A stretch of 64,000 bases of DNA from Bacteroidota bacterium. GTDB lineage: Bacteria; Bacteroidota; Bacteroidia; Bacteroidales; TTA-H9. Both the position numbers and the translations under genes were made by a program. The stretch covers positions 62,001-126,000 of the forward strand of contig QKGM01000007.1 of assembly GCA_003250395.1 (NCBI GenBank), in the 5' to 3' direction. Positions 1 to 27,386 of the stretch are shown piece after piece (within the stretch, counting starts at the first letter, position 1; every line of letters starts with the position of its first letter). The notes beneath the pieces were generated by a model. It saw nothing but the letters and a program-made list of their open reading frames with translations, was not told where the DNA came from and ran no database searches.

Positions 1-1893
1 GAGCATATGAAGAACATTCATGTTATTTTTCGATATCTGATGATCAATAAGCTCCTGGTAACGTTCAAGTTTTGCCCCGTGATAACCTCCTATACTCTTA
101 TGAAAATAGGAAGTTGAGGCATCATTGAAGGTATTGGTGGCAAGATTCAGAACCCTGAAATCAGGGTCTGTATCCTTCATGATAAGTTTGTCTGCACTTG
201 TAGGAACAAAGGGTTTGTCAACCAATGAAGCCTTTACAAAGTCTTTTTCATTAAGATATCTGCGGTTGATGGTATACATATCACCAATCACAAGCAGTGT
301 GAGGGTAATAAATAAGAAAGCCTTGTGAAGTTTCATGTAACTCCAGACAATGATAACTGCCCCGGCAAGCAGTATGAACAGAAAACTTCTGAAAGCGTCG
401 GCTTTAAATATTGCAATTCTGACCGCTTCCAGGCTGTTGGTAAAGAGCGAAACCTGTGTGGCAGCATCAGCACTTTTAGCTTTCATATCTGCATACTGGA
501 TAGCTTCCTGAGCACTCATGAAATCGAAAAATGCAGAGGGGATTAGTGCGAATATTAATGTGACCCCGGCCGTGATCCCTATAGCAATCAATACGGGTTT
601 TCGGAATTCATTGAAAGTTGTTTTTCCATTGACTATCTGGTTCAAAGCTAAAAAAGCAAGAATCGGCATACAGAGCTCTGCTATGACCAGCGTCATGGAT
701 ACCGCCCTGAATTTGTTATAACCAGGAATATAATCGAGGAAGAAATCGGAGAGAGGCATAAAATTATGTCCCCATGCTAACGTAATGCTTAGTACTGTGG
801 CAATTAACAGTGCCCACTTTAAAGTCCCTTTCACGATAATGAGCCCGAGCACAAACAGGAAAACAACAATAGCTCCTACATAAACAGGTCCGGAGGTAAA
901 TGGTTGGTCTCCCCAGTAGGCGTTACTTTGTGCTACATATTGCCTCATCTGGGGATCAGCTTTTTGAAGCGCATCCTCATGATTACCGAGTGCATCGCTT
1001 GCCCCGCCTTTAATGTTGGGAATGAGTAAACTCCATGTTTCTCCGATACCATAACTCCATTGCGTAACATAATCCTTATCAAGACCGGCAGTCTGGTTCT
1101 TTTCATTAACAGTGAGTTCCGATTTTCCACGGGTAGACTCTTTTCCATATTCCCATGTTACCCATAAATTTGTTATGGAAGGAAGAACTGCAATGAGTGC
1201 TGCTGCTGCAAGCACCCCTGTAGCCTTAAGAAAAGTGGATAACTGCTTTTCTTTGAAGGCAACGATCTTTAATCCTGCCGCGATGATTAGCAATGTCAAT
1301 AGCAGATAGTATGTAATCTGAAGATGATTGGCCGTAAGTTGTAACGAGGCAGCTAAAGCAGTAAGGACTCCGCCTGCCAGGTATTTCCCACGGTATGTCA
1401 GAATTACACCTGCCACCACTGGTGCCATATATGCCATGGCATGTGCTTTGGAATTGTGTCCTGCTTCCAGAATTATAAAGAAATAGGAAGAGAACCCGTA
1501 GGCAAGGGCTCCGACAAGAGCCGTCCATGGGTCAGTCTTTAGTACAAGTAACAGAATAAAAAAGCCGAGAAAACTGATAAAAAGCAAACCTGCCGGCCCG
1601 GGTAACCCAAGCCTGAGAACAGAATCAACCTTTTTCATCAGGTTAGCAGGGTACTGGGTCGAAATTTGATATGCCGGCATTCCTCCAAACATTGAATTGG
1701 TCCAAAGCGGTTCTTCACCGGTTTTTGCCCTGAAGTCAATAATCTCTTTGGACATTCCGGTCCAATTCCTGATATCGCCTTGTTGTACTTTTTTCCCTTC
1801 TAATAATGGAGCAAAGTACACGAGCGAAATAACGAGGAAAATAATGATCGCGGTAATAATAGGGATCAGACGGGTTAACGGTCTTTTTTCCAT
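1..1893 (-). CDS. YfhO family polytopic membrane protein (3' end beyond window)
   Basis: The frame is open from an ATG at 1893 down to base 1, giving 631 codons, with the C-terminus beyond the left edge. The protein starts with a short cytoplasmic stretch and a membrane segment at about residues 9-30. Many hydrophobic segments follow, with large loops between them. The N-terminal motif [12 protein letters not shown], the phrase [13 protein letters not shown] and the later stretch [13 protein letters not shown] are typical of Bacteroidota YfhO-like proteins. That family groups with GT-C-type membrane proteins and in Firmicutes has been tied to lipoteichoic-acid glycosylation. No substrate can be assigned here. 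A TACCTTTG -7 box at 1968-1975 lies about 75 bases upstream of the start. Confident for the family, not for the function. Confidence 0.8.
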
Positions 1894-1967
1894 AATAATT
1901 AGTTTAAGCCTGGGTCAGAATCGGTAAATGATGATTGGTTGTGATAAACCGGTTAATAATTTCAAGT

Positions 1968-1975
1968 CAAAGGTA
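1968..1975 (-). promoter_or_regulatory. Bacteroidota -7 box (TACCTTTG) for the YfhO-type gene
   Basis: The minus strand reads TACCTTTG, a full match to TAnnTTTG, upstream of the ATG at 1893. No TTG element is seen at the usual 19-21 base spacing, so only the -7 half is supported. Confidence 0.45.
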
Positions 1976-2031
1976 GCAAAAAGGGTTAATGTAAGGATTA
2001 ACCTACTGCAATGCCGGTTTTTTGAACAGAT

Positions 2032-2310
2032 TTATTCTCTTATTTCTTCATACTCCGTGTATTCGCCAACATTATCAAGGTTACCGGAACGAATGCTCTC
2101 CTGCGACGGCTCTTTCTTGATGCTTACTTTACCTGGTTTACCTGGATTTGGTTGCTCCTGTTCCGGCATTTGAAATCCAAACCTTTTCGACATTCTTGTC
2201 AGGTAGGCTTTGGTCAGGATTGGAAGCAGAATCCGGCTCAACAATCCCAATAAATAAAACGACAGGATGATAATCAGTAATATTTCAAAAAAACCAAGTG
2301 AAGCATTCAT
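2032..2310 (-). CDS. DUF4834 family small membrane protein
   Basis: This 92-residue protein has one hydrophobic segment near the N-terminus (about residues 6-32). A basic stretch (TRMSKRFGF) follows, then a charged, Pro/Gly-rich tail ending in EYTEYEEIRE. The layout and the juxtamembrane motif match DUF4834, a small single-pass family of unknown function found in Bacteroidota. It follows rpmH on the same strand after a hairpin at 2340-2369, so it may be transcribed separately or by readthrough. No catalytic residues are visible. Confidence 0.75.
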   Translation of the reverse strand: MNASLGFFEILLIIILSFYLLGLLSRILLPILTKAYLTRMSKRFGFQMPEQEQPNPGKPGKVSIKKEPSQESIRSGNLDNVGEYTEYEEIRE

Positions 2311-2339
2311 ATAGTTTGTGTTGATCAGTTAAACAGCAA

Positions 2340-2369
2340 AAGGAGGTAATGATTTTCCATTACCTCCTT
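2340..2369 (-). terminator. Strong hairpin between rpmH and the DUF4834 gene
   Basis: A perfect 12-base stem, AAGGAGGTAATG and its complement, encloses a 6-base loop. It lies just past the rpmH stop on the minus strand. The T run after the stem is short (TTTTGC), so it may be an inefficient terminator or an mRNA-stabilising end rather than a full stop. Confidence 0.6.
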
Positions 2370-2406
2370 CCGCTTAAAACAAACAGCGGTTCGTATGCTT
2401 ACGGAA

Positions 2407-2565
2407 TTATTTCCGGTCGAGATTCTCGTCAGAAACAGTTAGTTTCCAGCGGCCTTTGAGCCTTCTGGCTTTAAGAACCCTGCGGCCGTTAGCGGTGGCC
2501 ATACGGCTACGAAAGCCGTGCTTGTTCACTCTTTTTCTTCTGGATGGCTGGAATGTCCTCTTCAT
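2407..2565 (-). CDS. rpmH: 50S ribosomal protein L34
   Basis: The 52-residue product starts [19 protein letters not shown] and continues with [19 protein letters not shown], the unmistakable L34 signature. It is a component of the large ribosomal subunit. The frame could be extended 18 codons upstream, but that region contains a canonical promoter (2590-2619) and adds nothing L34-like, so the ATG at 2565 is chosen. The C-terminal tail [12 protein letters not shown] is slightly longer than in E. coli, as is common in Bacteroidota. The gene stands alone here rather than in the rpmH-rnpA order found in many bacteria. Confidence 0.97.
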
Positions 2566-2589
2566 AACACTAATTCTTTTTTGGGAGTG

Positions 2590-2619
2590 CAAAAGTAGCG
2601 TTTTTTTTCTACGTTGCAA
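2590..2619 (-). promoter_or_regulatory. Canonical Bacteroidota promoter of rpmH
   Basis: On the minus strand, TTG at 2619-2617 is followed by 19 bases and then TACTTTTG at 2597-2590, 24 bases before the rpmH ATG. Both elements and the spacing fit the primary sigma-factor consensus of the phylum. The promoter lies inside the longer alternative rpmH frame and so settles the start. Confidence 0.75.
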
Positions 2620-2664
2620 ACCACTGGTTATCTTTTTTTATAAATGCTGGGTTTTTATTAAAAT

Positions 2665-2698
2665 AAACCCGCCCGATGCTATACATTCGGACGGGTTT
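2665..2698 (-). terminator. Intrinsic terminator downstream of pepD
   Basis: An inverted repeat, AACCCGTCCGA with TCGGGCGGGTT on the minus strand (one mismatch, 10-base loop), is followed by a T-rich run. It sits between the pepD stop at 2763 and the rpmH promoter, as expected for the end of the pepD transcript. Confidence 0.6.
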
Positions 2699-2762
2699 TC
2701 GCTTATTTCCGCTGTGTGGAACAACCGGATAAGCTGCCCAAGGTTAACAAACCGCTTCCGGG

Positions 2763-4223
2763 TTATTTTAAGGGCGCATCCCTGAGTGTAGCTACAAGGA
2801 AGTCCCAGAATTTCTGAACAGTTTCAATATTTACCCGCTCATCAGGGGAGTGAGGTGACCTGATTGTTGGACCAAATGAAATCATATCCCAGTTGGGATA
2901 AACTCCGCCTAGCAAACCGCACTCCAGTCCGGCGTGAATAGCTTTAATCTCTGGAATTCTGCCATATAATTTTTGGTATATATCCTGCATCTTTTTCAGG
3001 ATGGGTGAATCCATGTTGGGTTTCCAGCCCGGATAACCCCCATCAAGCTGCACATCAGCACCGGCCAGCTCAAATACCGAAGATAGCATGGCAGCCAGAT
3101 CTTCCTTGGCTGAATCAACAGAACTACGTAGTAAGCAGGAGATTTTTACTTTTCCAGCTTCTGTGGCTACACTGGCAAGGTTGTTTGATGTTTCAACCAA
3201 CCCTGGCATAGAGTCACTCATACGAATGACACCATTGGGGCAACCATATATGGCATTGGTAACTGACCATTGAGAGGTTTTGTCCATCAGAGCAGCAGGT
3301 ATCGGAGCCTTTTCAATGGTAAAGCAAAGGTTGGGTTCTGTAGCGCTGAGCTCAGCTTTGTATATGGCTTCATAATGAGCAACGCATTTAGCAAGTTTTT
3401 CAGCCTGATCGGCCGGGACAGTTACTACTGCAACTGCTTCACGCGGGATGGCATTACGAAGTCCTCCCCCTTTAACAGAAGCTATACGCAACCTGTGTTC
3501 GTCGGCAGAATGTTTTAGAAATCTAAACAGCAGTTTATTTGCGTTCCCCCGTCCAAGAATAATATCCATACCAGAATGGCCTCCCTTGAGGCCGGAAATC
3601 TTTAAGGTGTATGCTGCCAGATTTCCGGGGACAGCCTCCTCATCATAATCAAAAGTGATATTGGCATCAATACCACCAGCACAACCAACGTATAATTCAC
3701 CCTCATCTTCTGAATCCAGATTTAACAGAATATCAGATTGAAGTATACCCGGCTTCAGACCGAATGCCCCTGTCATCCCTGTTTCTTCATCAGCAGTGAA
3801 GAGAGCTTCAATAGGACCGTGTGCAATATCTTTCGATTCAAGAACAGCCATGGCTGCAGCTACGCCAATTCCGTTATCTGCCCCAAGTGTGGTGCCGTTG
3901 GCTTTAATCCATTCACCGTCTATTTTTACTTCTATGGGATCAGTGGTGAAATCATGTTTTTTTTCTGAATTGGCTTGAGGAACCATGTCGAGGTGCCCCT
4001 GCATCACGATCCCTTTACGATTTTCCATACCCTTGGTTGCAGGCTTACGGATGATCACGTTGCCAACTTCATCCATTATCGTTTCGAGACCAAGCCCTTT
4101 CCCAAAGTTGACCATAAATTCGCGGATTTTATCTTCACTCTTCGAGGGACGCGGAATCAGGGTGAGGCTACGGAAGTTCTTCCAAATAGCCTGTGGTTGA
4201 AGTTGATTGAGTATTTCGTTCAT
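2763..4223 (-). CDS. pepD: Cytosol nonspecific dipeptidase / aminoacyl-histidine dipeptidase (M20C)
   Basis: The 486-residue length is right for PepD. It is a di-zinc M20 peptidase that hydrolyses cytosolic dipeptides, including Xaa-His. Visible landmarks are GHLDMVPQ (zinc ligand His and catalytic Asp), LGADNGIGVAAAMAV (bridging Asp), DEETGMTGAFGL (catalytic and metal Glu pair) and, near the C-terminus, HAGLECGLLG and GPTIRSPHSPDER carrying later metal and substrate ligands. The lid domain lies between the two catalytic halves. No signal peptide is present. The gene follows rsmG by 70 bases, and a TAACTTTG box in that gap suggests its own promoter. Confidence 0.93.
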   Translation of the reverse strand: MNEILNQLQPQAIWKNFRSLTLIPRPSKSEDKIREFMVNFGKGLGLETIMDEVGNVIIRKPATKGMENRKGIVMQGHLDMVPQANSEKKHDFTTDPIEVKIDGEWIKANGTTLGADNGIGVAAAMAVLESKDIAHGPIEALFTADEETGMTGAFGLKPGILQSDILLNLDSEDEGELYVGCAGGIDANITFDYDEEAVPGNLAAYTLKISGLKGGHSGMDIILGRGNANKLLFRFLKHSADEHRLRIASVKGGGLRNAIPREAVAVVTVPADQAEKLAKCVAHYEAIYKAELSATEPNLCFTIEKAPIPAALMDKTSQWSVTNAIYGCPNGVIRMSDSMPGLVETSNNLASVATEAGKVKISCLLRSSVDSAKEDLAAMLSSVFELAGADVQLDGGYPGWKPNMDSPILKKMQDIYQKLYGRIPEIKAIHAGLECGLLGGVYPNWDMISFGPTIRSPHSPDERVNIETVQKFWDFLVATLRDAPLK

Positions 4224-4266
4224 TTATCAATTTTATTTAATGGTGCGTATATTTTTTTTATTGCAA

Positions 4267-4274
4267 CAAAGTTA
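4267..4274 (-). promoter_or_regulatory. -7 box (TAACTTTG) for pepD
   Basis: A full TAnnTTTG match on the minus strand, 43 bases before the pepD ATG and just after the rsmG stop. No TTG is seen at the correct spacing. Confidence 0.4.
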
Positions 4275-4293
4275 AGTAAAAAGCTGAGAGCGA

Positions 4294-4911
4294 TCAGTAA
4301 ATATGAACTACTGCTTTTGTGTCGAAGAAGTCTTCGTAGAAAAAGTTGCTTAGATGATAAACATGGTAATGCCTGTTGATATCCTGTAACTCCTCTTCCA
4401 TGGACCCTCCCTTGATGTAAAGGATTCCGTTGCGCAGATGATTGATCTCTTCTCTGCGTATCCGACCACTGACCCATTCGCAGAACTCCGGAAGTCTGGT
4501 AACCGCCCTGCTGACAATAAAATCGTATTTCTCGGTTACTTCCTGAACACGTCCCCATCGGGGCTCTACATTTTCAAGCCCCAGTTCCGAAGATATTGCC
4601 TCAACAACCTTTATTTTCTTGCCTATACTGTCTAATAGTGTGAATTGTACCTCGGGAAAGAAAATGGCCAGCGGGATTCCCGGGAATCCCCCTCCCGTTC
4701 CTGCATCAAGTACATAGGTGCCTGGCTGAAACCTTACAATCCGGGCTATTGATAGAGAGTGAAGGACATGGTGAAGATATAAATTGTCAATGTCTTTCCT
4801 GGAAATCACATTTATCTTTTGGTTCCATTCAGTGTACAGCAATTGCAATCGATCGAATTTTTCTTTCTGTTCGGCTGTGAGTGTCGGGAAGTATTTGCTG
4901 ATGATTTCCAT
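4294..4911 (-). CDS. rsmG: 16S rRNA (guanine-527-N7)-methyltransferase
   Basis: The 205-residue product matches RsmG in length. This enzyme uses S-adenosylmethionine to methylate G527 of 16S rRNA. Evidence includes the N-terminal WNQKINVISRKD motif, the SAM-binding loop VLDAGTGGGFPGIPLAI, the acidic strand FTLLDSIGKKIKV, and FIVSRAVTRLPEF, where the SRA motif is typical of the family. It is probably soluble. It is transcribed away from the glucosaminidase gene, with about 160 bases between the two starts, and lies upstream of pepD. No oddity was seen. Confidence 0.95.
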   Translation of the reverse strand: MEIISKYFPTLTAEQKEKFDRLQLLYTEWNQKINVISRKDIDNLYLHHVLHSLSIARIVRFQPGTYVLDAGTGGGFPGIPLAIFFPEVQFTLLDSIGKKIKVVEAISSELGLENVEPRWGRVQEVTEKYDFIVSRAVTRLPEFCEWVSGRIRREEINHLRNGILYIKGGSMEEELQDINRHYHVYHLSNFFYEDFFDTKAVVHIY

Positions 4912-5021
4912 GGTTTTGGATCAACGGTCGTATAATTTGCGGGATTTGGAAAAACTTTGTAAATTTAGGAAAATTATCACATTTGCGTTCTTAAGAAAAT
5001 GTGTCACTGGTTATTCTTTCA

Positions 5022-16645: not shown

Positions 16646-17266
16646 TTATTTAATGAAGGATAACCCTTCTTTAGCAGATTTATCGTCGGGTTTCACCATC
16701 AGGGCATTGTTGAACAGTACACGTGCTTCACGGTATTTTCCTAGTTTCAAGCAGGTCCAGCCATACATGAGGTTCGCATCATAATCAAAGGGGTAGTAGT
16801 TAGCGACTTTCTCGAAATATCTTATCGCAGTGGCGAATTGCTCCCGTCCATAATAAATCAGACCTAAGCGATAATTTGCAATACTATGTCCGGGATCAAT
16901 CTTAAGGATTTCGAGATAGGCATTTTTTACCTGTTCCCAGTTGCCTAATGCTGAAGCAGGATATACAAGCCCGAGTCTTGCTTCGATTGATTGCGGCATT
17001 AATCGGATTGCTTTCTGGTAATATGCCAATCCATCGGTAAACCTACCCGAGAGGTAATAAAGCCATCCAAGCCTGATGTTTATGGCATAAGATTTTTCAT
17101 TGTATACTTTTTTAAGTGCATCTATCGCCCGATCATATTCCCCGGCATTCTCTTTTGTATAGCTTTGGCTGAATGCTTGTTCCAGGGTGCTTGAATTCTG
17201 GGAATAGGCCGCTTGCATATTTGCAAGCAGAACTGCCAGGACCAGTATTTTTTTTAAAAATTCCAT
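16646..17266 (-). CDS. Secreted tetratricopeptide-repeat protein
   Basis: The 206-residue protein has a signal peptide (about 1-22, ending AAYSQ) and four to five TPR units across residues 30-205. Examples are NIRLGWLYYLSGRFTDGLAY, SIEARLGLVYPASALGNWEQ and IANYRLGLIYYGREQFATAI. It is probably a periplasmic protein-interaction module. Its start overlaps the end of the upstream TPR/beta-barrel gene by 13 bases, so the two are translationally coupled. It is the last gene of the operon starting with the sensor kinase at 23798. Confidence 0.8.
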   Translation of the reverse strand: MEFLKKILVLAVLLANMQAAYSQNSSTLEQAFSQSYTKENAGEYDRAIDALKKVYNEKSYAINIRLGWLYYLSGRFTDGLAYYQKAIRLMPQSIEARLGLVYPASALGNWEQVKNAYLEILKIDPGHSIANYRLGLIYYGREQFATAIRYFEKVANYYPFDYDANLMYGWTCLKLGKYREARVLFNNALMVKPDDKSAKEGLSFIK

Positions 17267-18597
17267 TTTATTCCTCCAAGAAGTGTGTGTTTTTGATAAT
17301 TTACTGTTTCGGAAATCATAGTATTATTACTCAGGTCATAATGCCAGATTTGCCCTTCAGCCTGGTTATAGATGTATCGGAAGGAAAACATTACATTTTC
17401 GAAAGCAGGAATATAAATTACACCTTGTGCTCTTAATGTTGTTTTATCATCTGTATTCAACGAAAGAAAGTTATTCTCATCAACATAACGCGTAAGATCG
17501 CCGATTGCAACAGAAGTTTCCGCCCATACGTGAGAAGAAATCCTAAAACCTGCCGAGGGTTCAGTGATCCATCGATGCTGATCATCTTCTGAGAGAACGG
17601 TTGCATGTATTTTGAGCCAATAGTTTAAGTTCCCTGATGGAAACCATGTTATCGCTGCACCACCACCTACCTGTGTTTTGTCGAGGAGGGTCGCATAGTT
17701 ACCGTGCAGTGCAAGGTTGAACAGGTCAAAATCAGCATACAGGGCAATTCCGGTGGCAATATCCTTGTTTGAATATGATTTACCTCGGAAATAGTAAGCA
17801 GCCGAGTCTTGATTATATATTGCTGTTATAGGCCTGGAGCGGTTGTAAATAAAGTGAAAAGATGGTATGATCCTTAATCCGGGGAGCGGTTCGATGGACA
17901 GATTGAGGTATCCTTCATGTTGGTTAAAGCTATAGCTTCGTCTTATTGTATCCAGGCTTCCCAGTTCGATTCGTTGGTATCGGTCAAGTGAAAGGTTTGA
18001 ATATCCCACATAGGCAGTAATATAAGATCCCAGTTCAAATCCTCCGCCTGCATGAAAGTAAAAAGCGTTACCCGGAAGATTAAATTCACCATATATACTG
18101 TCTGAGCCACTGATATAAGAATCCCTCAGCGGGTCTATAGCGTTGGAATAGAGAGGCCCTAATTCAGTATAAACATAAGAAGGCCTGACAGGATTTTTAA
18201 GTTGAAGCCGAAGCCTTGCAGCTTCTGAAAAGCCAGAGGTGATTGAACGTGCACCTCCTGATCGACCAGAGTATAACAATGAATAATACAGGTACTCACG
18301 CGAAAATTCATCTCCCTGATTTAAATGAAGAGCCTTACCAAAGTATCTGGACGCTTTACGATAATTATTTTTCGCAAACCAGGCAGCACCTATCCTTGCA
18401 TTCAGATATTGATAATCATTTCCGGAAGCCATAGCCTGTTGGCCGACAATGATAAGTGAATCCCATTGCTTTTGCTGATAAAGCCTCCATGTTGTCTGGT
18501 CATATTCCCTGAAACCTGGAGAATTTTGAGAGAAAGCTATTCCCTTTGAAAAGAGTATTAACAAAACACTAAACAGAGCAATTATTCTATTTACCAT
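17254..18597 (-). CDS. Outer-membrane beta-barrel-like protein with N-terminal TPR region
   Basis: From the ATG at 18597 the product is 447 residues with a signal peptide (ending GIAFSQ). An upstream ATG at 18615 would overlap the preceding stop and lengthen the N-terminus. Residues about 30-130 look like TPR helices (ARIGAAWFAKNNYRKASRYF). From about 150 on, alternating aromatic and polar beta strands with YG/GYSN turns dominate (AYVGYSNLSLDRYQR, LSIEPLPGLRIIPSFHFIYN), and the chain ends HTLLGGIKWNF. A terminal Phe is usual for outer-membrane barrels. Function unknown. The position between the UT-M23 fusion and a TPR protein suggests an envelope complex, by inference only. Confidence 0.65.
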   Translation of the reverse strand: MVNRIIALFSVLLILFSKGIAFSQNSPGFREYDQTTWRLYQQKQWDSLIIVGQQAMASGNDYQYLNARIGAAWFAKNNYRKASRYFGKALHLNQGDEFSREYLYYSLLYSGRSGGARSITSGFSEAARLRLQLKNPVRPSYVYTELGPLYSNAIDPLRDSYISGSDSIYGEFNLPGNAFYFHAGGGFELGSYITAYVGYSNLSLDRYQRIELGSLDTIRRSYSFNQHEGYLNLSIEPLPGLRIIPSFHFIYNRSRPITAIYNQDSAAYYFRGKSYSNKDIATGIALYADFDLFNLALHGNYATLLDKTQVGGGAAITWFPSGNLNYWLKIHATVLSEDDQHRWITEPSAGFRISSHVWAETSVAIGDLTRYVDENNFLSLNTDDKTTLRAQGVIYIPAFENVMFSFRYIYNQAEGQIWHYDLSNNTMISETVNYQKHTLLGGIKWNF

Positions 18598-18607
18598 AAT
18601 CTTTGTT

Positions 18608-20833
18608 TTAGTCATGTATGTATTCGACTTCAATAGAACGGTTGTTCTTAACAATGACAAATTTGCTTATCAGATTGTTGTGCAGTTGCCACCTGAAGTC
18701 AATTATACTGGTAGTTTTTCCAAATATCTTCATAGAAGCACTCGAATCAAGGTAAACATATGAATCAGAGAATTGATCATCCATTTTCCTATAAAGCATT
18801 TTGAAACTACTATTCATGAAAATGCAGAAGGGGGAAATGAAATCCTGCATAAATAACCAACGGCGATCTGAAATGATGTGAAGTGGGTATTGATCCTCAA
18901 CCACCATTCCTTTATAAAATCCATTGATGATTTTATAGGCGCCAAGGTAAAAGTAATAAAGTAACGAACGTTTATCGCCTTCAAAGTGGGTAAACCACAT
19001 CACTTTACCATCATTTTTATACCAGGCACTGGCTTTTCCAGTTTCTGACCATAAGTATGTATTGTTGTAACTATCTGACTTTACCTCCCATACAATTTCT
19101 TTTGTGGAGTTATCATCATTTTTTACTTTAAATTTCAATAGCTGACCCGGAATAAATCTAAAGGCAGATGCAATGGCTTCATTGGGTTGAATGTTTGAAA
19201 TGACTTCATCCTGTAACGGAATCCCTGTCTGAACATATTCAAAACCCGATTTATTATGTCTGATATAAGATGATAAAGCACAAGGAAGAGTATAACTCCC
19301 GATATAAGGAAACTCCTGAACCTGAAAGTGAAGGTGTGGGCGTGGAGAACGACCACTGCTTCCCGCAAGGGCGATTACCTCCCCCCGTTGTACCCATTGT
19401 CCTTTGATAACTTTAAATGAGTCTTTTTTTAGATGGCTCATTTTAGTGTAGAAATGCTCAGAATGTCTTATGATGATTGTATTGCCCCAGTTATGCGTCA
19501 GATCCATATCGCCGACAGGAGAGTCGTTGATGCCATTAAGAATCTCTTCCACATATCCATCAGCCGGGGCAGTAACAGGTTTTGCATAACAATAATAATC
19601 TTCAGGCCGTGTTCCTTCATTCCTGTATAAATCACCATCTTCATCTCTGATTTCAAAATCCCAGGCTTCACGCCATTTTTCGCGATGGGTAAACTCACCA
19701 TTATGTCCTTGTGTTACTGTCCATTCTCCCCAGATTGGTAACGAAAGGGGGATAAGGGGAGGGGTCCCGAATCGTTGATGGTAATTGTGCTGGGCATATA
19801 GGTTTCTTTCTGGGGAAAAGAGCTGGTAATACACCAAAAGAGGTTTTTCGGTAAACCTCTCCCTGAATTTTAAGAAATAAAGAAAAAGTAATACTACTAC
19901 ATTGAAAGGGAGGGAATAGGCTGGTAGTTGCTGTGAATCAAGAACAGCGCCTGAAGCAACTATTATGACAGTAATAATTGGGGTTAACAGGAATAACCAG
20001 AGCAATGTATAACGGGAAGCGACCAGAAAAAAGCCTCCGATTGCAATCGCTGTCAGTATGTAGTTAAATCCAATATATCCATAGCTAAGTTCATTGATGT
20101 CGGCACCTAATAAACCGTAAAGAGCGTATGCCGAATAGAACCCGATCAGGCTGTAGAGGAAAGCGATACGTGAATAGATTAGGAGCCCAATTGAAACTAA
20201 TATCCCTGCAACCAGATGATACTGGAAGAAGACAGCCGCCAGTGATTTGAAATAGGTGGAAAGTGAGACTGGTAACCAGGGTTCGCTGAGAAAAGAATAG
20301 GTTTGAACAAGAGGATCTCCACCAAGTAAAAACATTTCGTTATAAGTATATATACCACGCGTACTGAATTCAAGCGCAGAGAACTCTCTGGTCGCCAAGG
20401 TAAAAAGCCAGATAACAATTAGAAAAGGTATGCTTAAAAATGGGAGTCCGTATTTACCAATTATACCCTCAAGGGCTTGGGTAAAAATAAGTGAGGATAA
20501 TGCCGAGAAGATTAGGATGATAAAGTATGCTAATCCGGGTTCAAAGCTAACGCCCAATCCTAAACCCACCAGAAGACTGTTAAACCCGTATGCACCAAGA
20601 GCAATGTTTTTACGGCTGAGACCGCCTATGTATGCAAAAATGTTGGTTGTTATTACAGTAATTACTCCACTAAGACCTGCCCAAAAGTCAAAGAAAGAAA
20701 CGGCCATAAGCATCAGTGCAAAAATGCGGTTATTTGAAAAAAAAACCTGGCTGTAGGAATTGAGCAGACTCCCTGTGAAGTCCGGGAATATACGATTGAG
20801 CTTGTTTAGTAAGTGCTGGTTTTCCATTTTCAT
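18608..20833 (-). CDS. Urea-transporter-like membrane domain fused to an M23 metallopeptidase
   Basis: The 741-residue protein has two parts. Residues about 30-325 are polytopic and carry urea-transporter features: a GAYGFNSLLVGLGLG motif, a second GFNYILTAIAIGG in the other half, and LPFLSIPF followed later by SLPFNVVV, recalling the LPxxTxPF urea-channel signature. Residues about 365-520 are an M23/LytM domain: GHNGEFTHREKWREAWDF gives His383 and Asp392 at the spacing of one M23 subgroup, and RPHLHFQV gives His500 and His502, so the zinc site appears intact. A beta-rich C-terminus of about 200 residues is unassigned. The gene begins in an ATGA overlap with the aminotransferase gene. Likely inner membrane, with the peptidase domain probably periplasmic. 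Confidence 0.8.
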   Translation of the reverse strand: MKMENQHLLNKLNRIFPDFTGSLLNSYSQVFFSNNRIFALMLMAVSFFDFWAGLSGVITVITTNIFAYIGGLSRKNIALGAYGFNSLLVGLGLGVSFEPGLAYFIILIFSALSSLIFTQALEGIIGKYGLPFLSIPFLIVIWLFTLATREFSALEFSTRGIYTYNEMFLLGGDPLVQTYSFLSEPWLPVSLSTYFKSLAAVFFQYHLVAGILVSIGLLIYSRIAFLYSLIGFYSAYALYGLLGADINELSYGYIGFNYILTAIAIGGFFLVASRYTLLWLFLLTPIITVIIVASGAVLDSQQLPAYSLPFNVVVLLFLYFLKFRERFTEKPLLVYYQLFSPERNLYAQHNYHQRFGTPPLIPLSLPIWGEWTVTQGHNGEFTHREKWREAWDFEIRDEDGDLYRNEGTRPEDYYCYAKPVTAPADGYVEEILNGINDSPVGDMDLTHNWGNTIIIRHSEHFYTKMSHLKKDSFKVIKGQWVQRGEVIALAGSSGRSPRPHLHFQVQEFPYIGSYTLPCALSSYIRHNKSGFEYVQTGIPLQDEVISNIQPNEAIASAFRFIPGQLLKFKVKNDDNSTKEIVWEVKSDSYNNTYLWSETGKASAWYKNDGKVMWFTHFEGDKRSLLYYFYLGAYKIINGFYKGMVVEDQYPLHIISDRRWLFMQDFISPFCIFMNSSFKMLYRKMDDQFSDSYVYLDSSASMKIFGKTTSIIDFRWQLHNNLISKFVIVKNNRSIEVEYIHD

Positions 20834-21993
20834 TCAGGAAAGCTGTGAGAGGATTCTTGTCCGTTAAGGAACCTTGAAAGGCAGAGAACAGCAGCTTTGA
20901 TGTCAGCGATAGGCTTTGCGGCATTAAACCTGATCATGCTATTAAATTGAGTCCCGAAATGGATTCCGGGCACAGTCGCCAGATTTTCTTTTTTATACAG
21001 ATCAAGCACGAATTGTCCTGAATCAGAGAATCCCTCAGGGATATTGGCCCAGACAAAATAGCCGCCACCTGCAGGAATTACATGGAACCCCATCTTTGTA
21101 ACAGATTCTGCCAATAGGGTGTATGAATTTTTTATGGATTTTCGGAGGTTTTCAATAAACACCCTAACATCCTGCTGGTCTTCCAGGTAATTTGAGATAG
21201 CAGCTTGTAAGAGGTGGGGTGCAGAAAGCCCGCTGAAATCGTGTAACAGACATATCTCTTTCATCTCAGCTGCTGTGGAAGTCAACCATCCTATACGCCA
21301 CCCGGTAACTGATAGGAATTTTGAAAAAGAGCTAACTACATAGACTTTATCTTGAATCACTGGTTGAGGGAAAACAGCTGGCTGATCAAACCATAATTCA
21401 CTATACACCATATCAAAGATAATTTTTGCATTGGTGGTTCTTGTAAGCTCACAAAACTGTTCGGTTTCATATTTTGTCAGTACTCTTCCCCAGGGATTAC
21501 CGGGAGAGCCGATAAGTATTAGATCGATATCTTGAATTTGAATTGCTGTTTTGAGATAGTCAAAGTCAATTGATCCATCAGCCTGCCAGGATAGTGCAAC
21601 AAAATTATGACCCAAAAGGGAAGGAAGGTTGACATAGCTTTCGTAGCTTGGCCCAAATGCAGCCACAGTGAACTTCTTCTTCTTCTTTCGGGCCAGATGC
21701 TGATAGATAAGATGGATCGCTTCGGTAGCACCACAGGTAATTAGAAGATTCTCATTAGCAGCCGATGATGGAAGCCCCATGTAATCAGAAATCTTAGTCA
21801 GAAGAGATGGAAAGCCTTTTGTAGGAGCATATTGATGATGAGTGCTTTCTATTTCACTGGCAAGAGAATTAAGAAGACCCCGGGGAGGATTAAACCCGGG
21901 AAGTCCCTGTGCAAGGTTGATTCCTCCATATGTTTTTACTTTGTTACTCATATGGCTTATCCAGGAGCCAATCATTTTGGGATCTTCGTACAT
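20830..21993 (-). CDS. PLP-dependent class I/II aminotransferase
   Basis: This 387-residue fold-type I enzyme shows NLAQGLPGFNPP at the N-terminus (typical of the methionine/kynurenine aminotransferase branch), ITCGATEAIHLIYQ for PLP-phosphate contacts, IGSPGNPWGRVL with the PLP-ring Asn, IIFDMVYSELWF, and SSFSKFLSVTGWRIGW with the Schiff-base Lys225. The conserved carboxylate-binding Arg is expected in SMIRFNAAKP. The substrate cannot be fixed; methionine or glutamine keto-acid transamination is the nearest family role. It starts six bases after the sensor kinase stop and ends in an ATGA overlap with the UT-M23 fusion, so it is in the middle of an operon. Confidence 0.88.
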   Translation of the reverse strand: MYEDPKMIGSWISHMSNKVKTYGGINLAQGLPGFNPPRGLLNSLASEIESTHHQYAPTKGFPSLLTKISDYMGLPSSAANENLLITCGATEAIHLIYQHLARKKKKKFTVAAFGPSYESYVNLPSLLGHNFVALSWQADGSIDFDYLKTAIQIQDIDLILIGSPGNPWGRVLTKYETEQFCELTRTTNAKIIFDMVYSELWFDQPAVFPQPVIQDKVYVVSSFSKFLSVTGWRIGWLTSTAAEMKEICLLHDFSGLSAPHLLQAAISNYLEDQQDVRVFIENLRKSIKNSYTLLAESVTKMGFHVIPAGGGYFVWANIPEGFSDSGQFVLDLYKKENLATVPGIHFGTQFNSMIRFNAAKPIADIKAAVLCLSRFLNGQESSHSFPE

Positions 21994-21998
21994 GATAA

Positions 21999-23798
21999 TT
22001 AAATTTTGAATAAAGGAAGTGTAAAAGTAAAAGTGCTTCCTTTATCGGGTTCACTTTTAACACTGATAGTTCCTCCATTTCTTTCGATGAAATCATGAAC
22101 AAGTATTAACCCTAAACCTGTTCCAGGTTCTCCTGCTGTTCCTTTTGATGAATGACTTATCTCAATTCTCCATAAGCTGGCACAAGTTTCCTTGTCCATC
22201 CCTACTCCTGTATCTGTAATGGATATTTGCGCAAAGTCGGCTGTCCTGGTTGATTTAACAGCGATAGAATGACCAGGATATGAGAATTTAATAGCGTTAC
22301 TAAGCAGATTCCTAACAATAGCAGAAGTCATTTGGTAATCAGACCAAACGAACAATGCCGGAGCCATATCTTTTTCAATGGTTATTTGCTTGGACCCAAG
22401 CATAAGGTCAAGTTGTCCTGTTACTTCATCAATCAATCGGTTCAGGTTGAGTTTCTCCGGCTGGTAGCTGACTCTTCCAGTCTGCATTCGGGTCCATTCC
22501 AGCAGGTTGTTGACCAATTGATATCCCTGGCGACTGGAGTCATAAATCAGTTGATGGAATTTACGCGCTTTTTCAGGAGGCATTGCATCAAAATCTTCAG
22601 TCAGCACCTCAGCCAGGCCTACTAATCCGTGAAATGGATTACGCAGATCGTGGGCAATAATGCTAAAAAACTTATCTTTAGAGAGATTGAGTTCCTGTAA
22701 TTGTTTTTCAGATTCAGCCAGTTTCCAGTTTTTTTCTTTTAATTGCCTGAAAGTTGATATGGAGAACAAGATGAATGTGAAAACAAGAGCTATAAGTAAG
22801 GTAGAAATAATCAGAATTATAAATGTGTCTTTAAGGTAGTCGCTAAGGGTGGCATCAGAGGAGTAGCTGATAATGTATGCAACAGTATTTTTATCAGGTC
22901 CTGCTACTGGGAAAAATAAACCAGTATAACTATTGCCAGTACTTGTTTTTGCATTTAGTCCGAATGGAAGGTTTTTTATCAATCCTTTTTCGATTTCACG
23001 TTTGTTGATTTTGTTAAACAGAACGATTTCCGATTGGGCAATATATTGTTTCATACCGGGACGGTTCAAATCACGGTCGCTCTTTTCATAAAAGTAATCT
23101 ACACTCAGGTCACTGAACGTATAACCAGTTAACATTGGATATGGAGTTGTCTGTAGTACACTTTCCTTGTTTATAAGGAAGACATATTCATAAGGGAAAA
23201 TTTTCTTCATTTCTTGCTGTAGCGCTACGTTATCAATGGAAAGTATTACAAATCCTCTAACGCTTTGTTTATTCCCGGCTGGTAATGCAATGCAATACCC
23301 GGCAGCTGTCCCACCGGCGTAAAAACCAGTTATATTGTTACCCGACCAATCAACAGAATCAAGTAATGAATTAAGGGTTGTAATAGTGTCGCCAAAATAA
23401 CCAGGATTATGCATACGAAGCATCACCTCCCTTTGGCTATTGATGATTGTAAAACCCTTAAATCCCCGATGTAATAGTTTAGAATAAATATCACCTAATA
23501 GTTTTTGGGCAACAAGTTTTCCTGAATCCGGTTGAACAGTTAGTAATAAAATTGCTGAATCACAGGTCTTTGTGTTGGCATTAGGGGCTATCTCTGAGAG
23601 CATTGCCATAGCAACTTCTTCGAAATGATGAAGCGTGGCTGTTAATCCGATCTCAAATTCCCGGGTGTTTTTTTTGATATATACCTGATGATTTTTTTGA
23701 TAATTCTGCCATATAATCCAGGCGCTGAAGCTTTCTGTAATTAAAAAAAGCAAAATAAGAAGATGAGGCAGTTTCTTGATGTGGAGTCGGTTTTCCAT
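21999..23798 (-). CDS. Membrane sensor histidine kinase with large periplasmic sensor
   Basis: The 599-residue protein has a membrane segment at about 13-30, an extracytoplasmic region of about 300 residues (Cache/PAS-like), a second segment at about 331-353 and a short coiled linker. A HisKA domain follows with IIAHDLRNPFHG, the phosphoacceptor being His383. The HATPase domain shows NLLSNAIKF, DTGVGMD and GTGLGLILVHD. The HDLRNP variant H-box is usual for HPK-type kinases of this phylum. No receiver or output gene is adjacent, so the partner is unknown. It is the first gene of the operon and a TACTTTTG box lies 23 bases upstream. Confidence 0.9.
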   Translation of the reverse strand: MENRLHIKKLPHLLILLFLITESFSAWIIWQNYQKNHQVYIKKNTREFEIGLTATLHHFEEVAMAMLSEIAPNANTKTCDSAILLLTVQPDSGKLVAQKLLGDIYSKLLHRGFKGFTIINSQREVMLRMHNPGYFGDTITTLNSLLDSVDWSGNNITGFYAGGTAAGYCIALPAGNKQSVRGFVILSIDNVALQQEMKKIFPYEYVFLINKESVLQTTPYPMLTGYTFSDLSVDYFYEKSDRDLNRPGMKQYIAQSEIVLFNKINKREIEKGLIKNLPFGLNAKTSTGNSYTGLFFPVAGPDKNTVAYIISYSSDATLSDYLKDTFIILIISTLLIALVFTFILFSISTFRQLKEKNWKLAESEKQLQELNLSKDKFFSIIAHDLRNPFHGLVGLAEVLTEDFDAMPPEKARKFHQLIYDSSRQGYQLVNNLLEWTRMQTGRVSYQPEKLNLNRLIDEVTGQLDLMLGSKQITIEKDMAPALFVWSDYQMTSAIVRNLLSNAIKFSYPGHSIAVKSTRTADFAQISITDTGVGMDKETCASLWRIEISHSSKGTAGEPGTGLGLILVHDFIERNGGTISVKSEPDKGSTFTFTLPLFKI

Positions 23799-23919: not shown

Positions 23920-25278
23920 TTAAAGTTCAAAATGATCAAGATGATTAGGTATTCGCTCCTGTCCATTCACTGAATTAAGATTTTCCTTTTCTCTTATAAT
24001 ATGAGGGTTACCGTCATTATCGATCATAACCACAGCGGGTCTGAGGGTAATAAATTGCATCCACTGGGTCATGTTATATGCACCGACCGAATGCACTACA
24101 ATATTATCGCCTTTATTGAGAAGAGGAAGACTTACAGATTCCCGTAATACATCAATATTCATACAAAGAGGTCCATTGAGCGTGGTGTCTTCTGTGTATT
24201 GAGTAAATTCCTGTGCTGGAGTTACTTTGTGATCGTACCAGAAGGAGGTAAACATCAGGTTAACCCCAATATCAACTATTGTAATCCGTTTCCCTTTAGA
24301 TGATCGCTTGTTTGAAATGACAGTCCCTAAAATATATCCTGCATCATCTACAAGAGCTCTTCCTGTCTCAAGTACCAATGTTGGTAAGAATTCGGACGAG
24401 AAATCGGCATTGAGTAGTGCCGTTGTAATTGCTTCGGCGTAATCATCAAACGAAGGGTTCGTATCGGTACCAGGAAGGTAGGCTCCTTTGAGGGTGTTTC
24501 GTGAAGTGAATCCCCCACCCATGTCGATGTACTTAATTGTATGGTTGAACTTTCGTTGTACACCTATTGCCAGTTCAGCCAGTTTACCTGCTGCTACAGC
24601 ATATGCCTGAGCTGATAACATAAAAGTTCCGATATGACAATGCAGCCCTACAAGTTCCAGTCTTCCTGAATGTAGGATTTTATTTAACGCATCCCAGGCC
24701 TGACCGTTTTCATAATTAAAACCAAATCGATCCCACATTGGGTAAACGCCTGTATCCATGTTTACCCTGATCGCAACCCGAGGTTTGGTATTATGTCGTT
24801 CAGCAAGCTCAGTTAAAGTGTAGAGTTCCTCAAGATGATCGATGTGAATCAAGGCATTGTGTTGAATAGCCATTTCCAAATCCTCTTCTGATTTGTCGGG
24901 ACCGTTAAAAATTATCTTACTCCCTTTGACACCATTCCCTAGAGCCTTCTGAAATTCAAACCCTGATACAACTTCAGCCCAACTGCCTTCCTGATGAAAT
25001 ACATTGCAAACTGCGCTGATATAATTAGTTTTATATGACCAGGCGAACTGCACTTTAGGGTATCGTGTAGTGAAGGCTTTTCTGGCTTTCCTGTACTGAC
25101 TTCTGAGTACTTTTTCGGAAATAACAAAAAGCGGAGAGCCAAATTTATCGATGAGTGATTTTACTGGTACTCCATCAATTTGTGTTGTAGGACGGTAATC
25201 GGTTCTCATCCCAAACTTATTTGGCATCTCGCTGTCGAGTCGCCTGATTATAGGTCGTTCGTATCTTAATTTCTCCAT
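23920..25278 (-). CDS. DapDC-like PLP-dependent decarboxylase (fold type III)
   Basis: The 452-residue protein belongs to the Orn/Lys/Arg/DAP decarboxylase group with an alanine-racemase barrel. WSYKTNYISAV places the PLP Lys at residue 83. Other marks are GLHCHIGTF, the phosphate loop IDMGGGFTSRN, VLETGRALV, and the cross-subunit GPLCMNIDVL in the C-terminal beta domain, matching the GPxCxxxD motif of DapDC. Family members include diaminopimelate decarboxylase, carboxynorspermidine decarboxylase and BtrK, which decarboxylates glutamate on a carrier protein. A general LysA role is less likely given the neighbours: it follows an ATP-grasp gene by 11 bases and a PqqD-like gene. The substrate is unknown. 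Confidence 0.85.
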   Translation of the reverse strand: MEKLRYERPIIRRLDSEMPNKFGMRTDYRPTTQIDGVPVKSLIDKFGSPLFVISEKVLRSQYRKARKAFTTRYPKVQFAWSYKTNYISAVCNVFHQEGSWAEVVSGFEFQKALGNGVKGSKIIFNGPDKSEEDLEMAIQHNALIHIDHLEELYTLTELAERHNTKPRVAIRVNMDTGVYPMWDRFGFNYENGQAWDALNKILHSGRLELVGLHCHIGTFMLSAQAYAVAAGKLAELAIGVQRKFNHTIKYIDMGGGFTSRNTLKGAYLPGTDTNPSFDDYAEAITTALLNADFSSEFLPTLVLETGRALVDDAGYILGTVISNKRSSKGKRITIVDIGVNLMFTSFWYDHKVTPAQEFTQYTEDTTLNGPLCMNIDVLRESVSLPLLNKGDNIVVHSVGAYNMTQWMQFITLRPAVVMIDNDGNPHIIREKENLNSVNGQERIPNHLDHFEL

Positions 25279-25289
25279 GGTTATGGGGT

Positions 25290-26336
25290 TTATAATTCTC
25301 CTGTTGTACTAATTTTTTGAAATTCAGATATGTCTACTATCATATCCCAGGCATATCTGATAAACATTTTTCCTATACTGTATGTAGTAAAAGGCGTTAC
25401 CTTATCGCCCAAAGCCATTTGGACAAGGGCTTCAGGGATATTCTGACCAACACCAACGGCGAGGTAAATCCATGCAGGCATTCTTGGGTTAATCTCCAGT
25501 AAGTTAAATTCATTGTTTTTATCTTTCATGAGTTCTAGTTCAAATCCTCCGCGCCACTTGGTCGAACTGACAAAATGATAGGTAAGATCGAGCATTGTCT
25601 GATCAGCTATACTTATTCCTCCCCAGGCTTTTCCTTTGTCGGTAATATATTGTTTACGCATAGGAACAGCTGCAATGGTATTTCCTTTTCCATCGCCCAG
25701 TCCAGTAATATTGAATTCTGTCCCTGAAATGAATTCCTGAATAATTATAGGTAACCCCCACTTGTTGCTTATTTTTTTGTAGAGACTTTTCACCTGATCT
25801 ATATTAGAAGCAACGCCAGCATCATAGAATTTCCCTTTTACCACAACTGGCATCTCGAATTCTTTTTGCAAATCATAAATCTCCGATATCTCGAAGATCG
25901 CTTTACTTTTAGGTACTCTAATGCCATATTTTTGTCCGAAATCAAATAGATTTATCTTTTGCCGCTCTTCCAATTGCGTCATTGTTGGTAAAAAAACGTT
26001 AATTCCCATTGCCTTAAGATCATCCTCTATTTTAATATATGAATAGAGTTCTGCATCAAAATTTGGAATTATCACATCAAGATGCTCCTTATGGTGTATG
26101 TACTCCAACCGACTAAGCAAATTGTCCACACCTGCTGATGGATACGGTACCTGATAAGTTTTAGAGACCAAATTGTGCATATAAATCCCTGGTTCCAGAG
26201 ATTCGTATGCTAATCCGATAATGTTGGTGTCAAATGATTTAGCTTCTAAGAGTCCTCTTATAACAGCGACACCTGGTCCAGGACTGTCAATGGCATTTAG
26301 CCCGGTTACTGCTATGTTAAGCTTCTTCCTGATCAT
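25290..26336 (-). CDS. ATP-grasp ligase of the carbamoyl-phosphate-synthase-like group
   Basis: The 348-residue protein has an N-terminal Rossmann-like domain beginning KLNIAVTGLNAIDSPGPGVA. The ATP-grasp core follows: MPVVVKGKFYDAGVASN for ATP-lysine contacts, PIIIQEFISGTEFNITGLGD, GGFELELMKDKNNEFNLLEI with the metal-binding Glu, and NPRMPAWIYLAVGVGQN. The INPRMP segment is the usual Mg-binding Asn loop. Such enzymes join a carboxylate to an amine through an acyl phosphate. The acceptor here is unknown. Its start overlaps the PqqD-like gene by 20 bases and the decarboxylase follows 11 bases later, implying a shared pathway. Confidence 0.85.
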   Translation of the reverse strand: MIRKKLNIAVTGLNAIDSPGPGVAVIRGLLEAKSFDTNIIGLAYESLEPGIYMHNLVSKTYQVPYPSAGVDNLLSRLEYIHHKEHLDVIIPNFDAELYSYIKIEDDLKAMGINVFLPTMTQLEERQKINLFDFGQKYGIRVPKSKAIFEISEIYDLQKEFEMPVVVKGKFYDAGVASNIDQVKSLYKKISNKWGLPIIIQEFISGTEFNITGLGDGKGNTIAAVPMRKQYITDKGKAWGGISIADQTMLDLTYHFVSSTKWRGGFELELMKDKNNEFNLLEINPRMPAWIYLAVGVGQNIPEALVQMALGDKVTPFTTYSIGKMFIRYAWDMIVDISEFQKISTTGEL

Positions 26337-26577
26337 GATGTTGGCTCAGATGGTGATTGTCAAGCATTCCTGTGAAATCAGTCAGGTCTTTATCAAATGT
26401 TTGTGGATCGATTTGATACTTTTTGCATATGGTTTCTATAATCTGTGCAGATTCTAAGCCGTCATTGATCATCTGTATTATTTCAAAACCAATCGGGTTA
26501 ACAGTGAACGATTCTCCTGTAATTGGATTAAACATGAATCCTGATTCGCTGATAGCGATACTTTTTTTAATTCTCAT
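26317..26577 (-). CDS. PqqD-like small protein
   Basis: This 86-residue protein follows the PqqD pattern. N-terminal beta strands (MRIKKSIAISESGFMFNPIT, then GESFTVNPIGFEII) lead into winged-helix-like helices QMINDGLESAQIIETICKKY and FDKDLTDFTGMLDNHHL. PqqD domains bind leader peptides of RiPP precursors or occur in other small-molecule clusters. The tail SQHHDQEEA is acidic and is encoded within the overlap with the ATP-grasp gene. No radical SAM protein or obvious precursor peptide is beside it. It lies 11 bases after the T9SS gene on the same strand. Confidence 0.8.
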   Translation of the reverse strand: MRIKKSIAISESGFMFNPITGESFTVNPIGFEIIQMINDGLESAQIIETICKKYQIDPQTFDKDLTDFTGMLDNHHLSQHHDQEEA

Positions 26578-26588
26578 ATAAGGTGAAG

Positions 26589-27386
26589 TTATTGCGTAAC
26601 AACTATTTGTTGGCTAGATCCGTGAAAACCTGGTGCTTCAATTTTCCAGAAATAAATACCAGGGGTAAGGTCTTTGGTGTCAAGTATCAGGCTGTCGAAA
26701 TTGCTGTCAATAGTATATTTTTTTATGATAAGCCCGGAAATATTTATTACAGATAATTCTGCCTGTCTGAGCCCTTCCGGGAGCGTGTAGTCGATCTTAA
26801 GGTTTCCTTTTACAGGATTGGGAAAAGCTTTCATTCCAATAGTTTCCGTGACATTGGTTGACTCCGAGGTCAATGATCCACCTAATGTGAACACTTTTGT
26901 CGAAACCGTATATGGTGTTACGGCATAATTGTAAATGTAACTGAAAAGTCTGGTCCCTGACCCAACGACATTGGTAATCCAATTATAACCGGCTCCTGGT
27001 AATGTTAGGAGTATAGTGCCAGTTTCGCTTGCGACCCGTGTTTCATATGTATAATAATCAAGAGTACTATTGTAATTATAACAGACGTATAACATTTCAA
27101 TTGAATTATCCATATTGAAAAGATGATCGGTTACATATTGGATGTCGTAAAGGTAATAATTTGAGGGAATGCTGAGGTTAACACTTTTCCAAAGTGAATG
27201 ATCTAGGTTATATAGTAGGCATTGACTATTGGGTACATCCATTACATAGTATTTGTCTCCATATGTCTCCGTATGAGCAATGCCAGCCGATACACCAGAA
27301 TAGGTGTGTTCTAAAGAGATCTGAGCAACACTAATTTGCGATGTAGCGATCAGCATAAAGATGAGAAGGGAGGTAAGAGTTTTCAT
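26589..27386 (-). CDS. T9SS-secreted protein with type A sorting domain
   Basis: The 265-residue protein has a signal peptide (about 1-21, ending SVAQ) and a central region of about 160 residues rich in Tyr, Asn and Thr that looks like beta repeats. The C-terminal type IX sorting domain runs from about 188 (AFPNPVKGNLKIDY) through LSVINISGLIIKKY and LTPGIYFWKIEA to the end. It should cross the outer membrane by T9SS and be released or lipid-anchored. The middle has no family that can be recognised. It is the first gene of the transcript that continues into pqqD-like, ATP-grasp and decarboxylase genes. Confidence 0.85.
   Translation of the reverse strand: MKTLTSLLIFMLIATSQISVAQISLEHTYSGVSAGIAHTETYGDKYYVMDVPNSQCLLYNLDHSLWKSVNLSIPSNYYLYDIQYVTDHLFNMDNSIEMLYVCYNYNSTLDYYTYETRVASETGTILLTLPGAGYNWITNVVGSGTRLFSYIYNYAVTPYTVSTKVFTLGGSLTSESTNVTETIGMKAFPNPVKGNLKIDYTLPEGLRQAELSVINISGLIIKKYTIDSNFDSLILDTKDLTPGIYFWKIEAPGFHGSSQQIVVTQ

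Follow-up and report, generated by a model that had tools for sequence, protein, structure and literature searches.

What purpose is served by the fusion, in one protein, of a urea-channel-like membrane domain with an M23 peptidase? UT channels are known as urea pores and M23 enzymes as cell-wall cutters, and a single open frame in the window (i.e., the whole 64,000-nucleotide stretch analysed here, positions 62,001 to 126,000 of contig QKGM01000007.1 in assembly GCA_003250395.1 of a Bacteroidota bacterium) carries both domains, followed by a third, beta-rich one. An earlier, sequence-only reading of the stretch proposed that flux of an osmolyte or nitrogen through the channel is coupled to wall remodelling, or else that the channel part is only an anchor. 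The fusion and its parts are as follows:

18608..20833, minus strand: fusion protein with UT, M23 and (at best) LolA-like domains, 741 aa; open frame, Pfam UT and Peptidase_M23, model mean pLDDT 88.6
19874..20767, minus strand: UT channel domain, residues 23-320; PF03253 E 1.2e-59; VIA-align Z 36 to 3k3f and human UT structures
19268..19753, minus strand: M23 peptidase domain, residues ~361-522; PF01551 E 1.7e-16; VIA-align Z ~14 to LytM domains; His383, Asp392, His467, His500, His502
18611..19171, minus strand: C-terminal beta domain, residues ~555-741, LolA/YmcC-like at best; model pLDDT 92.9; PDB matches 4fvs, 3fzx, 2w7q

The domain assignment and the fusion itself were borne out, as both Pfam matches exceed their curated cut-offs (202.4 bits against 25 for PF03253; 60.7 against 28.7 for PF01551, the latter spanning residues 418-506). 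Both GFN motifs (at residues 83-85 and 255-257) and the LPFLSIPF motif (130-137) lie where they had been placed, as do His383, Asp392, and His502, which together with His467 and His500 comprise the zinc ligands and catalytic His and are invariant in 122/122 distinct fused proteins (137 fused proteins less those with identical UT stretches; L005, L044, and L055, which have no usable frame, were left out). In the fusion, the first His and the Asp are separated by five more residues than in the usual HxxxD spacing. Modelling of the fusion with AlphaFold2 on 28 homologues gave a mean pLDDT of 88.6 and a pTM of 0.74, and residues 6-350 superpose on the dvUT structure 3k3f with a Z of 36.4 over 314 aligned residues (rmsd 3.3). 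The beta-rich C-terminus of about 200 residues was likewise confirmed, folding with a mean pLDDT of 92.9 when modelled alone. Among its best matches in the PDB are two Bacteroides-type exported proteins, 4fvs (Z 8.7) and 3fzx, an entry titled YmcC-like (Z 8.6), as well as a triglyceride transfer protein domain (Z 8.8) and LolA structures at about 7.9 and less (2w7q, Z 7.8); as these values are near those of chance likeness, "LolA-like" is a lead only, and the modelled domain, which has no clear family, is LolA-like at best.

The fusion is real and old. A search for the spread of the architecture found the fused frame open in many genomes, so that it is neither a chance occurrence nor an assembly artefact; its recurrence across dozens of genomes likewise rules out a gene-fusion artefact. 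An even sampling of 395 Bacteroidota genomes yielded a UT match in 45; it lies in frames of 535-769 aa in 33 genomes and in a broken frame in a 34th, G005 (fusion was judged here by frame length, and neighbourhoods were read for 19 of the 34). The shortest frame (G255, 535 aa) holds UT and M23 without the C-terminal domain. In G005, a single frame break falls at the UT/M23 junction; the two parts occupy overlapping frames (L152:6444-8698), and homology runs across the break. A match above 500 bits is present in 25 of 60 relatives, the window's own genome not counted, and a scan of named genomes, taken as the best 80 of 567 candidates, returned entries nearly all titled Bacteroidota. Culturable carriers of the gene include Algoriphagus sp. 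CAU 1675 (locus L135) and Plebeiobacterium sediminum (locus L112). In a tree of 67 UT domains with long branches, 58 fused domains fall on one side of a branch with 100/100 support and 8 stand-alone domains fall apart from them; by this sequence tree, the fused UTs are one clade, separate from stand-alone UT channels.

The fusion does not occur by itself. Genes for a PqqD-like protein, an ATP-grasp ligase, and a LysA-like decarboxylase lie upstream of it, and genes for a barrel-like outer-membrane protein and a TPR protein lie downstream. In the window, these and two inserted genes are arranged as follows:

26317..26577, minus strand: PqqD-like protein, 86 aa, first of the conserved set; PF05402 E 1.2e-9
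25290..26336, minus strand: ATP-grasp ligase, 348 aa; PF15632 E 1.2e-10; same 34/395 genomes as the fusion
23920..25278, minus strand: LysA-like PLP decarboxylase, Cys372-Met373; nearest solved relative 7kh2
21999..23798, minus strand: histidine kinase, HisKA and HATPase_c; operon insertion in the window's own family
20830..21993, minus strand: class I/II aminotransferase, PF00155; operon insertion in the window's own family; its stop overlaps the fusion's start
17254..18660, minus strand: exported TPR and beta-rich, barrel-like protein; weak TPR match; barrel predicted from sequence; probable true start 18597 or 18615
16646..17266, minus strand: exported TPR protein, 206 aa; TPR families

Profile searches of the named loci (best 80 of 567 candidates) found the PqqD-like gene in 47, the ATP-grasp gene in 47, and the decarboxylase gene in 45 of the 51 loci with more than 4.5 kb upstream, and barrel-type and TPR genes each in 58/58 loci with room downstream. 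Across the phylum-wide sample, the three upstream genes are each present at 18/18 loci, while the downstream barrel profile matches at 9/18 and TPR at 15/18; at several distant loci the position of the barrel is occupied, as judged by eye, by exported ORFs of 275-317 aa. At E<=1e-30, the ATP-grasp gene occurs in 34/395 genomes, which are exactly the 34 fusion genomes, and in 0/11 genomes whose UT is solely stand-alone or partial; L160, the single neighbourhood of a stand-alone UT that was searched, contains no gene of the set. The kinase and aminotransferase insertion is found at 4/4 further loci of the same genus or family and is absent from the single locus (1/1) of another family.

No precursor peptide for the PqqD-like protein was found upon clustering of 850 small ORFs near the loci, in which the only clusters reaching at least five loci were missed PqqD-like genes and their antisense frames; a RiPP with a neighbouring precursor was rejected for this lack of a conserved small ORF. 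Several further genes were observed at the edges of the set. A regulator-like gene of about 200 aa, which by eye looks to be of AraC type and to begin with a part resembling a heavy-metal domain, lies ahead of the PqqD-like gene in up to 18/45 named loci (one similarity cluster; 3 of the 18 on the other strand), examples being L077:6522-7118, L105:6561-7154, L131:6442-7011, and L120:54-641, among others. In the window, an exported protein (26589-27386, minus strand) is encoded just upstream of the PqqD-like gene and has an end resembling the sorting domain of type IX secretion; in L061 and L063, the same place is occupied by large proteins that end in a similar way. A gene of about 300 aa, EIF2B-like by eye, lies between the decarboxylase and the fusion in four named loci (e.g., L061:9067-9975 and L063:9045-9962). 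Lastly, the set's genes occur twice in G124:C1, near either end (998-4956 and 3732415-3736372), and one of the UT copies is split, which may reflect duplication of the contig end.

Among solved structures, the nearest relative of the neighbour decarboxylase is the N-citrylornithine decarboxylase 7kh2 (E 2.9e-83, against 4.4e-62 for LysA 1twi), and BtrK was also matched; the protein falls below the cut-off of TIGR01048 (LysA; 239.5 vs 297.9 bits). Service as a duplicate LysA for lysine synthesis is unlikely, because a separate, true LysA above the cut-off is also present in 29/33 fusion genomes. Methionine follows the catalytic Cys in 14/14 neighbour decarboxylases, and in FigC, M355 occupies the position at which other members of the family have an acidic residue for binding the free side-chain amine (PMC7857480). 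As this Met adjoining the catalytic Cys is a mark of the N-citrylornithine enzyme, the sequence suggests a substrate whose side-chain nitrogen carries an amide. In the alignment, Thr344 corresponds to T327 of FigC and Tyr348 to Y331, and Ile375 stands where FigC has the citrate-contacting His357. The ATP-grasp ligase is, we infer, the natural maker of that amide.

Because the fusion travels with these biosynthesis genes, it probably handles the small molecule of the set rather than urea or the cell wall. The broader reading, to which we attach about even credence, is that the fusion is the inner-membrane component, with a cytoplasmic processing head, of an apparently undescribed, conserved biosynthesis-and-transport system of Bacteroidota; no paper on the fusion or its gene set was found in the full text of open-access PMC, the PqqD passages of PMC8939145 included. 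In its usual orientation, the UT domain would place the M23 and LolA-like domains at the inner mouth of the channel, on the cytoplasmic side. The ATP-grasp enzyme would link an acyl group to a diamino acid, the LysA-like enzyme would strip the carboxyl from the amide-linked amino acid, and the PqqD-like protein would present the substrate; the M23 domain, aided by a hydrophobic-ligand-binding LolA-like domain, may trim or free a small amide-bearing product, which would leave first through the UT-type pore and next through the barrel/TPR pair of the outer membrane. Because the UT pore is narrow, a large product could not pass. The missing precursor peptide and the incomplete matches of the downstream profiles in the phylum-wide sample also weigh against this reading. 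That the cytoplasmic M23/carrier head takes the amide product of the upstream trio, cuts it free, and feeds it directly into its own UT pore toward a dedicated outer-membrane barrel is a tentative proposal, possible rather than probable. If true, neither a cytoplasmically active M23 enzyme nor a UT channel devoted to the product of a biosynthetic pathway would, to our knowledge, have a precedent.

A further question is on which side of the membrane the peptidase resides. Membrane segments were taken from the model, and Lys and Arg were counted in the loops of each side: in 122/122 fused proteins, the side of the N- and C-termini carries more of them (10.0 on average, against 2.5 on the other side), its four short loops together contribute a mean of 4.48 as compared with 0.23 across the membrane, and 3.3 such residues on average directly follow the last membrane helix. 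Stand-alone UTs have the same charge sense (8/8), and full-length alignment to UT structures leaves room for no extra membrane helix in the fusion. Since the charge asymmetry puts both UT termini in the cytoplasm, as in known UTs, the M23 domain can with reasonable confidence be predicted to lie on the cytoplasmic side, a location that argues against peptidoglycan as its substrate. The T5a-Pb loop of UT lies outside, in support of cytoplasmic termini (PMC4357013).

The main rival to the cytoplasmic head would reverse this arrangement, with the UT domain upside down or the C-terminus otherwise exported, such that the M23 and LolA-like domains would reach across the periplasm in the direction of the barrel/TPR pair as an arm that opens or docks at peptidoglycan to pass on the product of the operon. 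Known M23 enzymes and LolA/YmcC relatives are extracytoplasmic, and this habit of the families of both extra domains favours such an arm, as does the fact that the next two genes encode exported proteins. A composition classifier also judged the soluble part to be exported-like (P averaging 0.70 and exceeding 0.5 in 89%), although its own control, stand-alone M23 domains, reached only 0.45 (n=8, being those of 24 stand-alone M23 loci, L057-L060 included, that passed the motif filter); as the control was misjudged, composition is not decisive for location. The arm is nevertheless opposed by the uniform charge sense, the Lys and Arg residues after the last helix, and the lack of room for an additional one, as well as by a cysteine content that is cytoplasm-like and unpaired. 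Cysteine makes up 0.98% of the soluble part vs 0.18% and 0.24% of two exported cluster proteins (training sets: cytoplasmic 0.93%, exported 0.60%), and the two commonest cysteines, Cys415 and Cys490, occur together in 83 proteins where 84.2 are expected, i.e., independently, and are thus not a fixed disulfide. On balance, a periplasmic arm appears rather unlikely.

The sequence-only reading had called for a structure model to show whether the urea pore residues are kept. Selectivity-filter residues of dvUT/UT-B (PMC4357013) were scored over the 122 distinct fused proteins. Most are retained, namely Q24 (103), F80 (110), L84 (118), L247 (116), F190 (120), and F243 (117); other positions are mostly changed. 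T130 is Ser in 114/122, a hydroxyl (Ser or Thr) being present in 121/122; Ser replaces T294 in 101; L293 has given way to Tyr in 78 and to Phe in 28 (106/122 in all); and E187 is Ala in 109, with Glu or Gln in 0/122. Stand-alone UTs keep both Thr residues in 8/8 and Glu or Gln at 187 in 8/8. The fusion further falls below the equivalog cut-off of TIGR03441 (NCBIfam urea_trans_yut; 131.4 vs 274.6 bits). A hydrophobic slot that is conserved together with an outer site that is altered suggests passage of a solute other than urea. The same outer changes (E187 to Ala, L293 to Tyr or Phe) might be expected if the UT domain were a dead anchor holding a cytoplasmic peptidase near the membrane, but L84, L247, F80, F190, F243, and the hydroxyl at T130 would be needless for an anchor, the retention of which makes this explanation unlikely.

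As for urea itself, urease alpha (counted at E<1e-50) occurs in 1/34 fusion genomes (G166) vs 6/10 tested stand-alone-UT genomes; in 5 of these 6, urease and UT are encoded less than 7 kb apart. Five further fusion genomes gave weak matches (E 5e-5 to 2e-4) that were counted as other amidohydrolases. None was found in the window's own genome, a result that says little alone because that genome is only 76% complete. Urea nutrition via the fusion was rejected on the urease contrast. The stand-alone UT genes near urease (L160:6574-7476 and those of genomes G186, G198, G210, and G316) provide a contrast set for true urea uptake. The coupling of urea or osmolyte flux to peptidoglycan cutting, which accords with the UT fold, the mostly kept filter, and an M23 metal site intact in 122/122, is very improbable in view of this contrast, the loss of the outer filter Glu in 122/122 (Ala in 109), the strict link to the ligase/decarboxylase pair, and an M23 domain predicted to be cytoplasmic, away from peptidoglycan, in 122/122.

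UT and M23 domains were recruited together, in one protein and one clade, into a Bacteroidota-wide gene set. The union of a channel and a processing enzyme can here be put directly to the test, and the set points to an unrecognised metabolite in a major phylum. Where these long genes are annotated as "urea transporter", the label is probably mistaken.

With UT/SLC14 channels (dvUT 3k3f, human UT-B), the fusion shares the fold, the ten-helix pattern, most filter residues, and the charge sense, whereas it adds C-terminal domains, has a central Thr pair that is mostly Ser, has lost E187 in 122/122, and shows no urease link. Its M23 domain retains the fold (Z ~14) and the invariant His/Asp/His-x-His site of M23 peptidases such as the LytM domains of EnvC, ShyA, and lysostaphin, but is joined to a channel and predicted to lie on the cytoplasmic side. 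The C-terminal domain resembles LolA/LolB/YmcC-like ligand carriers in its beta-sheet with helices, yet is attached to a channel and matches most of them at identities below 10%, with Z near the level of chance likeness. In the downstream genes, an exported TPR protein and a barrel-like outer-membrane protein recall the TPR-barrel exopolysaccharide exporters (PgaA, AlgK/AlgE), although the profile matches are weak (VexE, PgaA-like) and the set is without a polysaccharide synthase. The nearest parallel for the biosynthetic trio is found in FigC/FslC and BtrK, the closest solved relatives of the decarboxylase, with which the Cys-Met pair is shared. The butirosin side chain is reportedly built by the ATP-grasp/LysA-like pair BtrJ/BtrK, of which BtrK works with an ATP-grasp ligase and a carrier; the set described here differs in that a PqqD-like protein takes the place of the acyl carrier as partner and in that Ile375 replaces His357.
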